This document shows positions 55,718 through 59,447 of a stretch of DNA of 64,000 bases, one piece after another. The position numbers were made by a program, and so were the translations under genes. Positions within the stretch are counted from its first letter, which is position 1. Every line of letters starts with the position of its first letter. The DNA is from Duganella sp. OV510 (GTDB lineage: Bacteria; Pseudomonadota; Gammaproteobacteria; Burkholderiales; Burkholderiaceae_D). The stretch spans positions 248,001 to 312,000 of the forward strand of contig NZ_FNEQ01000006.1 in NCBI RefSeq assembly GCF_900100205.1. The letters run 5' to 3'. The notes below the pieces were generated by a model. That model was not told where the DNA came from and did not search any database. It saw nothing but the letters and a program-made list of their open reading frames with translations.

Positions 55718-57970
55718 TTATTGCTTGACGCAGTCCACGAAGTAACCGCGCTTGCCGTCCACTTCGCGCTTGACCAGGCCGTGCACGTCAGTCTCGAAGC
55801 CTGGGAAGCGTTCGTTGAAGTCGCGCGCGAAGCGCAGGTAGTCAACGATGGTCTTGTTGAAGCGCTCACCAGGAATCAGTAGCGGAATGCCTGGTGGGTA
55901 AGGCGTCAGCAGGATCGAGGTGATGCGGCCTTCCAGTTCATCGATCGCCACGCGCTCGATTTCACGGTGCGCCATCTTGGCGAAAGCGTCCGATGGCTTC
56001 ATCGCCGGAATCATATTCGACAGGTACATCTCGGTGGTCAGGCGCGCCACGTCATAGGCTTTGTAGAAGTCGTGGATCTGCTGGCACAGGTCGCGCAGGC
56101 CGACTTTTTCGTAGGCCGGGTTGGCGGCCGCGAATTCCGGCAGGATGCGCCACATCGGCTGGTTCTTGTCGTAGTCGTCCTTGAACTGCTGCAGTGCGGT
56201 CAGCAGCGTGTTCCAGCGGCCTTTGGTAATGCCGATGGTGAACATGATGAAGAACGAGTACAGGCCACACTTCTCGATGATGACGCCGTGTTCGGCCAGG
56301 TACTTGGTGACGATCGACGCCGGGATGCCGGTTTCGTCGAACTTGCCGTCCAGCGACAGGCCAGGATTGACGATGGTGGCCTTGATCGGGTCCAGCATGT
56401 TGAAGCCCGGTGCCAGCTTGCCGAAGCCGTGCCAGTCGTCTTCCGCCTTGATGATCCAGTCTTCGCGCGAACCGATGCCTTCTTCGGCGAACTCGTTCGG
56501 GCCCCAGACCTTGAACCACCAGTCGGTGCCCCATTCCTGATCGATCTTCTTCATCGCGCGGCGGAAATCCAGCGCTTCGAGGATCGACTCTTCCACCAGC
56601 GCGGTGCCGCCTGGCGCTTCCATCATCGCCGCCGCGACGTCGCACGAGGCGATGATCGAGTACTGTGGCGAGGTCGAAGTGTGCATCAGGTAGGCTTCGT
56701 TGAAGGCGTCCTGATCCAGCTTGACCGATTCCGATTCGCGCACCAGCACCTGCGAGGCCTGCGACAGGCCGGCCAGCAGCTTGTGGGTCGACTGGGTCGA
56801 GAAGATCATCGACTCCTTGGCGCGCAGACGGTCCTTGCCGATCGCGTGCATATTCTTGTAGAAGTCGTGGAAGGTGGCGTGCGGCAGCCAGGCTTCGTCG
56901 AAGTGCAGCGTGTCGATCTGGCCATCCAGCAGCTCGCGCAGGGTTTCCACGTTGTAGACCACGCCGTCGTAGGTCGACTGGGTGATGGTCAGGATGCGCG
57001 GCTTCTTGTTGACGGCTTCGCGCGCGAACGGGTTGGCTTCGATCTTGCGCTTGATGCTCTCCATCGAGAACTCTTCCAGCGGGATCGGGCCGATGATGCC
57101 GAGGTGGTTACGGGTCGGCATCAGGAACACCGGGATCGCGCCGCACATGATGATCGAGTGCAGGATCGACTTGTGGCAGTTGCGGTCGACCACCACGATG
57201 TCGCCAGGCGCGACGGTCGAGTGCCACACCATTTTGTTCGAGGTCGAGGTGCCGTTGGTGACGAAGTAGCAGTGGTCGGCGTTGAAGATGCGCGCGGCGT
57301 TGCGCTCGGACTTGGCGACCGGGCCGGTGTGGTCCAGCAGCTGGCCGAGTTCTTCGACGGCGTTGCAGACGTCGGCGCGCAGCATGTTCTCACCGAAGAA
57401 CTGGTGGAACATCTGGCCGATCGGCGACTTCAGGAAGGCCACGCCGCCCGAGTGGCCAGGGCAGTGCCACGAGTACGAACCGTCGTTGGCGTATTCGACC
57501 AGTGCGCGGAAGAACGGCGGCGCCAGGCCATCCAGATAGGACTTGGCTTCGCGGATGATATGGCGGGCGACGAATTCCGGCGTATCTTCAAACATGTGAA
57601 TGAAGCCGTGCAGCTCGCGCAGGATGTCATTCGGAATGTGGCGCGAGGTGCGGGTTTCGCCGTACAGATAGATCGGGATATCGGCGTTCTTGTAGCGGAT
57701 TTCCTCGACAAAGGCGCGCAGTGATTTCAGCGCGGTGTCGGTGTCTTCCACCGAGCCGGTGCCGAATTCCTCATCGTCGATCGACAGCACGAAGGCCGAC
57801 GCGCGCGATTGCTGCTGGGCGAACTGGGCCAGGTCGCCGTAGCTGGTCACGCCCACCACTTCCATGCCTTCTTTTTCCATTGCATCGGCGAGGGCGCGAA
57901 TGCCCAGGCCGGACGTGTTCTCGGAACGGAAATCCTCGTCAATGATGACGATGGGGAAACGAAATTTCAT
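55718..57970 (-). CDS. Arginine/lysine/ornithine decarboxylase (PLP-dependent, class III)
   Basis: 750-residue inducible-type basic amino acid decarboxylase, giving agmatine, cadaverine or putrescine with proton consumption (acid resistance/polyamine supply). It has an N-terminal receiver-like wing domain (about 1-130, starting FRFPIVIIDEDFRSE), a PLP domain with HCPGHSGGVAF, NGTSTSNKMV, FDEAWLPHATFH and PLP-binding Lys397 in STHKLLAG, then a C-terminal domain with GITKGRWNTL and LTPYPPGIPLLIPGE. Length and N-terminal wing match AdiA/LdcI/SpeF. Substrate cannot be assigned by eye. ATG 57970 has GGAGA upstream. The leader contains an attenuator-like structure. No antiporter gene lies next to it. 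Confidence 0.93.
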   Translation of the reverse strand: MKFRFPIVIIDEDFRSENTSGLGIRALADAMEKEGMEVVGVTSYGDLAQFAQQQSRASAFVLSIDDEEFGTGSVEDTDTALKSLRAFVEEIRYKNADIPIYLYGETRTSRHIPNDILRELHGFIHMFEDTPEFVARHIIREAKSYLDGLAPPFFRALVEYANDGSYSWHCPGHSGGVAFLKSPIGQMFHQFFGENMLRADVCNAVEELGQLLDHTGPVAKSERNAARIFNADHCYFVTNGTSTSNKMVWHSTVAPGDIVVVDRNCHKSILHSIIMCGAIPVFLMPTRNHLGIIGPIPLEEFSMESIKRKIEANPFAREAVNKKPRILTITQSTYDGVVYNVETLRELLDGQIDTLHFDEAWLPHATFHDFYKNMHAIGKDRLRAKESMIFSTQSTHKLLAGLSQASQVLVRESESVKLDQDAFNEAYLMHTSTSPQYSIIASCDVAAAMMEAPGGTALVEESILEALDFRRAMKKIDQEWGTDWWFKVWGPNEFAEEGIGSREDWIIKAEDDWHGFGKLAPGFNMLDPIKATIVNPGLSLDGKFDETGIPASIVTKYLAEHGVIIEKCGLYSFFIMFTIGITKGRWNTLLTALQQFKDDYDKNQPMWRILPEFAAANPAYEKVGLRDLCQQIHDFYKAYDVARLTTEMYLSNMIPAMKPSDAFAKMAHREIERVAIDELEGRITSILLTPYPPGIPLLIPGERFNKTIVDYLRFARDFNERFPGFETDVHGLVKREVDGKRGYFVDCVKQ

Positions 57971-57980
57971 GCATGTCTCC

Positions 57981-58036
57981 AAAAAAGCAAGCCGCCCCTG
58001 ACTTGTGTGGAGGGGCGGACTAGGGCGCGACCCCTC
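57981..58036 (-). promoter_or_regulatory. Attenuator-like leader of the decarboxylase gene
   Basis: On the minus strand, CCGCCCCT (58011-58018) can pair with AGGGGCGG (57992-57999), followed by CTTGCTTTTTT, then the Shine-Dalgarno and ATG. Upstream, GAGGGG (58031-58036) can instead pair with CCCCTC (58010-58015), which would break the terminator. The two structures are mutually exclusive. Confidence 0.5.
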
Positions 58037-58174
58037 GGGTGAACGGGCCGCAAAAAAATAAGAACGGGATTCTCGCAGAAATAGCGCCCCTGCGGGAAAA
58101 AATTATCGTAACAGAATGCACGACCTGCATGACGCGCGTATTACAAGTCATGCCATTCAGCCAACGTTGCTTGA

Positions 58175-58678
58175 TTACTGGGCTTTAAAACTTGAGGCGT
58201 TGCGCGCCAGGGTGACAAAAGCGTAGTGCAAACCGGAAGCTTCGGACACGTGCTGCTCGCGGGCGGTTTCCTGCCAAGCGCTGGCGTCGATCTCCGGGAA
58301 GAAAGCATCGCAATCGAAGGTATGGGCGATTTGCGTAATAATCAACTGATCGGCCAGTTGCAGCGATTGCTTGTAGATCTCGGCGCCACCGATGACGAAG
58401 CCCTCGGCGCCGTCCAGCAGTGCGATAGCAGCCTCGATAGAACCGACCGTCTCGACGCCGTCATGCGACCATTTATCGTTACGCGTAACGACAATATTGC
58501 GGCGATTCGGCAGTGGGCGGCCGATGGAATCAAAGGTTTTGCGGCCCATGATGATCGGATGTCCGCTGGTGGTACGTTTGAAATGCGCCAGATCCTCCGG
58601 CAGTTTCCATGGCAGCGTGTTATTGATGCCGATACCGCGCTGTGCGTCAGTAGCGACGATGATAGTAAGTTTGCTCAT
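58175..58678 (-). CDS. folA: Dihydrofolate reductase
   Basis: Reduces dihydrofolate to tetrahydrofolate with NADPH. 167 residues, normal for bacterial DHFR. Family features are IVATDAQRGIGINNTLPWKLPEDL (catalytic Asp in PEDL), HPIIMGRKTFDSIGRPLPNRRNIVVTRN and FVIGGAEIYKQSL (described in parts). ATG 58678 follows GGAAG. It is the last gene of a thyA-hydrolase-folA series on the minus strand; ThyA makes the dihydrofolate it reduces. A REP-like hairpin lies only 13 bp upstream. Confidence 0.96.
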   Translation of the reverse strand: MSKLTIIVATDAQRGIGINNTLPWKLPEDLAHFKRTTSGHPIIMGRKTFDSIGRPLPNRRNIVVTRNDKWSHDGVETVGSIEAAIALLDGAEGFVIGGAEIYKQSLQLADQLIITQIAHTFDCDAFFPEIDASAWQETAREQHVSEASGLHYAFVTLARNASSFKAQ

Positions 58679-58751: not shown

Positions 58752-59447
58752 TTAGTTGTAAAAGGTGCGCATGTGGTGGGCCAGGGCTTGCGGGGCTTCG
58801 AGTGGGATCATGTGGCCTGTGCCTTCGGTGAGCATGTGCAGCTGGGCCTCCGGGTTGTAGGTGGTGAATTCGCGGATGTCGTCTGCCGATACCAGCTTGT
58901 CTTGCTCGGACGCGACGATCAGCACCGGGCAACGCAGTTCGCCGGTGCGCAGCATCAGGTCCGGGCGCTCGATGGTGGTGCGGAACTGCGTCAGCAGCAC
59001 GTCCTTGCCGAGATCGATGGCCATTTGCTGGATGACGCCGACGATGGCCGGATCGTCCATGTGCTCGGGCGCGAGAATTTCGCGCAGCCGCATTTGCGTC
59101 ATGCCAGTGTAGTGGTTCTTTTCCAGCAGCGGGATGATGCGCAGGCGCGTGGCCTTTTCCTTCTCCTGCAATCCTTTGGCGGAACTGGCGATGATGACCA
59201 GCGAATTGACGCGCTCCGGATTGGTCAGCGCGTATTCCACCGCCAGGTAGGCGCCCAGCGAGAAGGCGACCAGGTTGGCTTTCGGCGCGCTGTGGGCGCC
59301 GATCAGTTCCTGCATCTGCGCGCGCGAGCGGGCCTTGTGCAGCGGCACGTGGTGGAACTCGAAGCCGTCGCCCAACAGCGGCAGCAACCGGCTCCACATG
59401 CGTTCATCGCACAGCGTGCCGGGAACAAAGTCCAGCCGCATCGTCAT
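58752..59447 (-). CDS. Alpha/beta hydrolase
   Basis: 231-residue serine hydrolase. [16 protein letters not shown] (oxyanion region), nucleophile Ser63 in AFSLGAY, acid in VASEQDKL and His in [14 protein letters not shown] 59447 overlaps the thyA stop (ATGA), so it is coupled to thyA. A longer frame reaching 59528 would lie within thyA and is not credible. Substrate unknown; not obviously linked to folate chemistry. Confidence 0.88.

Follow-up and report, generated by a model that had tools for sequence, protein, structure and literature searches.

A possible attenuating terminator in the leader of an Orn/Lys/Arg decarboxylase gene of Duganella and its relatives

Introduction

Leader RNAs of decarboxylase and polyamine genes have been described from several bacteria. 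The Salmonella speF leader is long and uses orf34 and Rho (PMC6386406). The odc1 motif, reported from alphaproteobacteria, shows UUG starts, a pseudoknot and a conserved upstream open reading frame (ORF) of 11 aa (PMC8632094). The spermidine riboswitch is a variant of the SAM-I aptamer and is located in leaders of polyamine genes including ldcC (PMC10853860). Here and below, statements on these systems refer to excerpts of the respective sources.

Here, we study the leader of an Orn/Lys/Arg decarboxylase gene within a 64,000 nt stretch of DNA from Duganella sp. OV510 (in the following called the window, i.e., the whole stretch analysed). The locus resembles speF in that a decarboxylase gene has a structured leader with potential control before and at translation, but its leader comprises only about 92 nt, holds no conserved ORF and shows an intrinsic-type terminator (compared with the excerpt of PMC6386406). 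Like odc1, whose gene presumably encodes an ornithine decarboxylase, it has a hairpin close to the start codon together with a short overlapping frame; in contrast to odc1, however, there is just this overlapping frame, which is probably a by-product (compared with the excerpt of PMC8632094). The spermidine riboswitch is likewise found in leaders of polyamine genes, but the window is without an Rfam match at the gathering score (compared with the excerpt of PMC10853860). That is, none of the three systems, as far as described in the excerpts, matches the leader studied here.

Intrinsic-terminator attenuators of bacterial biosynthetic genes are alike in placing a hairpin and a U-tract between the promoter and the ribosome site of a metabolic gene. 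The leader studied here differs from them in that we found neither a 7-bp antiterminator nor a leader peptide that is conserved, and no known sensor. Within the open-access literature, we found no report of a riboswitch, attenuator or terminator leader for a betaproteobacterial ornithine, lysine or arginine decarboxylase, and excerpts of two papers on decarboxylase lineages (PMC8503589, PMC7806604) yielded no betaproteobacterial terms.

Results

The decarboxylase gene and the set of related leaders

The locus consists of a minus-strand gene pair, folA followed by the decarboxylase gene:

55718 to 57970, minus strand: gene behind the leader, encoding an Orn/Lys/Arg decarboxylase of 750 aa (Pfam OKR_DC_1, OKR_DC_1_N and OKR_DC_1_C over cut-off)
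57970, minus strand: ATG start codon of the decarboxylase, read from the sequence
58175 to 58678, minus strand: folA (dihydrofolate reductase, Pfam DHFR_1), the gene upstream of the decarboxylase

The presence of all three OKR_DC domains assigns the protein to the Orn/Lys/Arg decarboxylases of the AAT fold. Its best solved relative is 6q6i_A (E 5.5e-239), which carries the PDB label biodegradative arginine decarboxylase and which we take to be LdcA of P. aeruginosa. Six NCBIfam models matched, all below cut-off, such that lysine, arginine and ornithine are all possible substrates. The enzyme probably makes a polyamine. When the genome was searched with the protein, the sole match was the decarboxylase itself. 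Elsewhere in the genome, Orn_Arg_deC_N, which represents the other fold, matched once, within a 434-aa frame that is probably a diaminopimelate decarboxylase. The closest named relatives of the decarboxylase are from Duganella, Rugamonas, Massilia and Janthinobacterium.

An additional ATG is located one base before the true start (ATGCATG) and opens an overlapping frame of 11 codons (57974-57939). This frame, which is seen in 32 class A loci (with 11 codons in 29 of them) and in none of class A', is probably a by-product.

The classes refer to the leaders of the same gene from the family Oxalobacteraceae. A set of 210 loci provided 190 leaders distinct over 150 nt (189 over 140 nt, used later). 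Class boundaries are regular expressions. The rule for class A combines the 3' arm (GGGCGG or GGGGCG) of the hairpin h2 described below with a T-run and GGAG; classes A and A' comprise 44 distinct h2-type leaders. For folding, we excluded 34 leaders that lack the promoter-like block and mainly belong to more distant relatives.

A terminator-like hairpin directly before the ribosome site

The leader shows the following features:

58077 to 58069, minus strand: TGCGAGAAT, element resembling an extended -10 promoter, part of a block common to family loci
58068 to 58052, minus strand: CCCGTTCTTATTTTTTT, region of the predicted start including a T-tract, with strong conservation in class A
58051 to 58027, minus strand: hairpin h1 (GCGGCCC/GGGGTCGC), a 5' hairpin compatible with h2 in the predicted fold
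58026 to 57987, minus strand: terminator-like hairpin h2 with its outer pairs, fold -17.6 kcal/mol
58018 to 58011 paired with 57999 to 57992, minus strand: core stem of h2, CCGCCCCT with AGGGGCGG, 8 bp
57986 to 57981, minus strand: TTTTTT tract abutting the extended h2, read from the sequence
57980 to 57975, minus strand: GGAGAC, ribosome-binding site, present in all 43 aligned class A leaders, with an invariance that is partly built in since GGAG belongs to the rule selecting the class

An earlier note on this DNA had pointed to a GC-rich stem followed by a T-run directly before the ribosome site, and h2, the TTTTTT tract and GGAGAC indeed follow each other in this order. All folding energies reported here are single-sequence predictions. 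Among 300 dinucleotide shuffles of the leader, 5 contain a hairpin with T-run that is equally stable. Of 76 ORF starts of the window that are preceded by a Shine-Dalgarno (SD) sequence, a set that includes spurious ORFs, two show a T-run behind a stem of at most -8 kcal/mol, and the one of the decarboxylase is the stabler (-16.7 vs. -13.4). The 131-nt stretch as a whole is not unusually stable (z -1.33, 21/200 shuffles equally stable). The 6.4 Mb genome contains the pattern TTTTTTGGAG-N4-10-ATG at two places, one of which is this locus; since the reversed control pattern occurs four times, this count says little alone.

The extended h2 is a GC-rich hairpin directly followed by a U-tract, as expected for an intrinsic terminator, and obtains a terminator score of d = 16.7. 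If the outer GC and AG/CU pairs, which are weak, are disregarded, the U-tract follows the 8-bp stem at a distance of five bases, and the score of this core alone drops to d = -7.8.

The promoter-like block (TCTGCGAGAAT in the window, 58079-58069) is present in 126/130 family loci compared to 1/130 shuffled leaders, where the pattern was drawn from the very leaders it was counted in. Its distance to the start codon ranges from 46 to 229 nt (median 89) among the family loci. Behind TGC, we find the variants GAAAAT, GAGAAT, GACAAT and GATACT, which look like an extended -10 box. Given this resemblance, we place the transcription start near 58062 based on the spacing to the -10 block, such that the leader would be about 92 nt long. 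Judged from the same block, a start downstream of 58018 is unlikely.

Directly after the predicted start follows the T-rich TTATTTTTTT (58061-58052), which is conserved in class A, has similar counterparts in other classes and could allow RNA polymerase slippage or bind S1 protein. A second -10-like sequence, TACGATAATTTTTT, is located about 30 nt upstream (58110-58097) and is seen in leaders of the Duganella and Janthinobacterium types.

Conservation of h2 among relatives

An h2-type stem with tail was found in 43/52 loci of two genera (19/26 of the window's genus, 24/26 of the second one) and in 0/78 other family loci; these figures count every fetched locus of a genus, and genus names are partly inferred, with the second genus taken to be Janthinobacterium by matching contigs. 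The named loci with an h2-type leader (L002-L005, L007, L008, L061) belong to Duganella, Rugamonas, Janthinobacterium and one Massilia.

Within the h2 core, every one of the 44 leaders has standard pairs at positions 2-6; the same holds for pairs 1 and 7 in 43 leaders and for pair 8 in 42. The counts were taken from anchored arms since the alignment places L003, L083 and L087 one base out of register. Pair 8 is the sole compensated pair, with G-C instead of U-A in five leaders, which look like one branch. RNAalifold identifies the same single pair, with a covariation term of -0.31 of -7.8 kcal/mol. Along the alignment (43 of 44 class A leaders after removal of one duplicate), conservation is much higher in h2 and its tail than in h1 and in the loop of h2, although the invariance of 3' arm, T-run and GGAG is partly built in by the class A rule. 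This also applies to the contrast in terminator scores, which are above 0 for 37/44 h2-type leaders (class A 30/37, class A' 7/7; i.e., 7/37 class A leaders score at most 0) and for 4/84 of the remaining leaders (class B 1/30, class C 0/21, class D 0/6, unclassed 3/27). For terminator scoring as well as for the accessibilities given below, leaders were dropped by length or if they lacked a ribosome site or hairpin.

As folA lies directly upstream on the same strand of the window, h2 might alternatively terminate folA transcripts, or read-through from folA, and play no part for the decarboxylase. Among the named loci, folA is found at most 1.5 kb upstream of the decarboxylase in 7/7 of class A, 2/2 of class D and 13/14 of class B versus 2/9 of class C. 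However, the upstream distance of the folA end varies, with 788-837 nt in L002-L005 and L008 and 212-242 nt in L061 and L007, and h2 is located at the decarboxylase in all of these loci. The leaders thus belong with the decarboxylase and not with folA. Furthermore, the promoter-like block lies between folA and h2. We therefore rejected h2 as folA terminator, a reading that we consider very improbable.

The proposed competing helix

The earlier note had further claimed that an upstream segment can pair with one arm of the hairpin and prevent it. The leader would then be a true switch, where a ligand or condition decides which arrangement is formed; as signals, the note considered polyamine, pH, arginine or lysine plausible. 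The segment in question is

58036 to 58030, minus strand: segment taken as the competitor of the h2 5' arm, 7-bp complement in the window

Such pairing is possible in the window, i.e., GAGGGGT (58036-58030) can form 7 bp with GCCCCTC (58016-58010) of the h2 5' arm. The claim of mutually exclusive hairpins, however, does not agree with the predicted folds. When folding the growing transcript, h1 forms first (alone -15.2 kcal/mol), and the minimum-energy fold of the full leader contains both h1 and h2 (-34.1 kcal/mol), while forcing six pairs of the alternative helix results in -25.5 kcal/mol, i.e., a deficit of 8.6 kcal/mol. In the model, h1 and h2 adjoin without excluding one another. The alternative fares better before the 3' arm of h2 is made, where it is 1.0 kcal/mol worse than h1 and reaches a probability of about 0.17.

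Helices of 7 bp onto the h2 5' arm are found in 3/44 leaders (L001, L085, L087), that is, in the window and two relatives. For the other 41/44 leaders, the best respective helix has 3 to 6 bp, with 4 bp in L002-L004, the proteins of which are 97-99% identical. In the folding intermediate, the 5' arm shows a mean probability of upstream pairing of at least 0.4 in 10/44 leaders; the median is 0.127 and the maximum 0.87 (L085). The competitor segment of the window resides within the h1 loop region, which is the most variable part of the leader. Covariation among relatives is observed for the one compensated pair of h2, while the alternative helix is missing in most leaders.

The region of h1 folds with at most -4 kcal/mol in all 41 leaders that have at least 15 nt there, but is among the best 5% of its shuffles in just 12/41. 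That is, h1 is a stable predicted fold, at most putatively under selection, and it varies in sequence and length among class A leaders. An Rfam search of the window gave no match at the gathering score; the best hit below it was BSnc121 (E 0.91) on the other strand. With h1 variable, we thus find no conserved aptamer with covariation as known from riboswitches. Two further candidates were rejected, namely AGGGGCGC (58091-58084) as a second competitor, which is missing in L002-L004 and located farther upstream than the promoter-like block, and a pseudoknot between the loop CAAG and CUUG, where, judged by eye, CAAG is unconserved and there is no room for the loop.

Of the attenuator or riboswitch layout proposed earlier, the terminator-type leader is retained, whereas the competing helix is unconserved and outcompeted by h1 and h2. 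Given this lack of conservation, the leader probably serves as a brake, either a simple one or one with another trigger, and not as the riboswitch suggested earlier, and we rate a true switch as quite improbable.

Reading frames within the leader

Ribosome stalling on a leader peptide, as in speF, could attenuate transcription as well. A 28-codon frame starting with TTG runs through the leader of the window and has counterparts of 25-28 codons in L004, L083 and L084; in addition, class A leaders show short frames that extend across the start codon. On the other hand, the long frame has 13 codons in L002 and 9 in L007, stays open past the start in L003 and shows, by eye, no ribosome site, while none of the 7 class A' leaders has the overlapping ATG frame. 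A translated conserved leader ORF of the speF type was thus not found, as frames differ in length among the 14 of 44 leaders compared. Based on these 14 leaders, we discarded this mechanism, for which we see hardly any chance.

Decarboxylase leaders elsewhere in Oxalobacteraceae

Elsewhere in the family, the promoter-like block is retained before this gene, but the leaders show different hairpins. In class B (Massilia), we find a long one, GGUGCCGUG..CACGGCGC, with 94.7% of cells paired and 0/500 shuffles as high, a result that relatedness can equally produce. For its ribosome-site pairing (GCUUC/GGAGC), 97.9% of cells are paired and no covariation was found. In L006, L012, L013 and other Massilia-type leaders, the 3' strand of the long hairpin runs into this GCUUC, the complement of the ribosome-site GGAGC. 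The 6 leaders of class D carry a short hairpin of the AGGCGC..GCGCCU type directly at GGAG.

Class C covers 84 loci with 54 distinct leaders, and its named members include Undibacterium, Herbaspirillum and Noviherbaspirillum. Its element consists of GGCGCGCAAGC, a variable stretch of 5-46 nt and CCCAGGC (GGCGCGCAAGC..CCCAGGCG core), where the invariance of the core is partly built in since the loci were partly fetched by the core pattern. When long, the variable stretch can form an inner hairpin. The element is followed by GUCUCC in 33/54 leaders, which can pair with the ribosome-site GGAGAC at -9.9 kcal/mol or below, and in 36/54 no other tested 12-mer of the leader pairs with the site equally well. 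Examples of class C leaders are L019, L024, L030, L032, L033, L138, L153, L177 and L260. Class C and the leader of the window agree in the promoter-like block, the T-tract, the position of the hairpin and the gene. They differ in the core and the GUCUCC that often faces the ribosome site in class C; the core pattern has no exact match in the window's genome. The best match of the class C model within the window (E 0.007, 59280-59304) lies inside another reading frame.

For the two class C helices together, no significant covariation was observed (81.6% of cells paired, 251/500 shuffles as high; 451 of 500 shuffles for the covariation score). Co-variation of site and anti-site was rejected as well by a swap test, in which GGAGAA sites paired more strongly with GUCUCC-type segments of foreign leaders than with their own (-7.0 vs. 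-3.1). Rfam provided no match at the gathering score in the class C loci tested (13 among 20 sources); with a relaxed threshold, seven class C loci again gave nothing at that score, with rnk_pseudo in L207 (E 0.14) below it. The core pattern matches in 104/294 family genomes, and pattern loci are located away from the decarboxylase in 16/30 cases of one search and in 8/11 of another. Matches of the class C model were obtained for 27/200 genomes of the order, where the decarboxylase is present only at L294 among the 20 loci returned.

A more far-reaching idea is that the Oxalobacteraceae decarboxylase leaders belong to a single family of cis-acting RNAs that is as yet undescribed. A compact hairpin (GGCGC-GCAAG/YCCCAG-GCGUC) would then act as sensor for a polyamine or basic amino acid in Undibacterium, Herbaspirillum and Noviherbaspirillum by competing with ribosome-site pairing, while the same slot would have been rebuilt into a transcription terminator in the Duganella/Janthinobacterium branch. 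We consider this improbable.

Ribosome-site accessibility

Finally, the leader may act on translation or mRNA stability, where hairpins and pyrimidine tracts, including the U-tract, would set ribosome access. In leader-only folds, at least 3 of the GGAG bases are paired in 29/44 leaders of classes A and A', which strengthens this alternative and lowers our confidence in termination, although GGAG is free in the window's own leader fold. When 30 nt of coding sequence are included, the ribosome-site accessibility in the window is 0.21, compared with 0.39 (lower quartile 0.25) for a background of 52 window ORFs. Most class medians are similarly low (A 0.20, A' 0.03, C 0.07, D 0.22, unclassed 0.21). 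Ribosome-site pairing is also possible in class B and, via GUCUCC, in the 33/54 class C leaders reported above; class B, however, has a median of 0.35, i.e., near the background, and its pairing lacks covariation. Moreover, the U6 tract abutting a strong hairpin is a specific feature of class A. Taken as the main function of the leader, such masking appears unlikely to us, but as the main alternative to termination it receives a substantial share of the probability.

Among individual leaders, L007 pairs UUUCU of the 5' T-tract with GGAGA, closing a helix around h1 and h2. At least 3 GGAG bases are paired in the leader folds of L007, L097-L100 and other Janthinobacterium-type leaders.

Discussion

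Our best explanation, which we hold with somewhat less than even confidence, is that h2 acts as a lineage-specific attenuating intrinsic terminator, adopted in this branch, that lowers the expression of the decarboxylase, and that its trigger, if there is any, is not a conserved helix switch. Under this model, the decarboxylase would be transcribed from its own extended -10 promoter (58077-58069), providing a leader of about 92 nt from the predicted start, in which h1 and then h2 would form one after the other. Together with the U-tract, h2 may terminate part of the transcripts just before the ribosome site, such that expression is held down. If regulated, a factor or ligand would alter either the formation of h2 or the read-through of the polymerase rather than act via a conserved antiterminator helix. 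The transcription start, real termination at h2, its efficiency and any signal are what we infer from the sequence.

As it stands, the leader represents a plausible but ordinary attenuator. If the explanation is true, the genome's only decarboxylase of this family that was found is held down by premature termination. Furthermore, the leader RNAs of a single gene lineage would change, within a bacterial family, between terminating transcription and masking the ribosome site. They would thereby provide natural variants for testing the evolution of RNA control and for finding a bacterial sensor of polyamines or amino acids.
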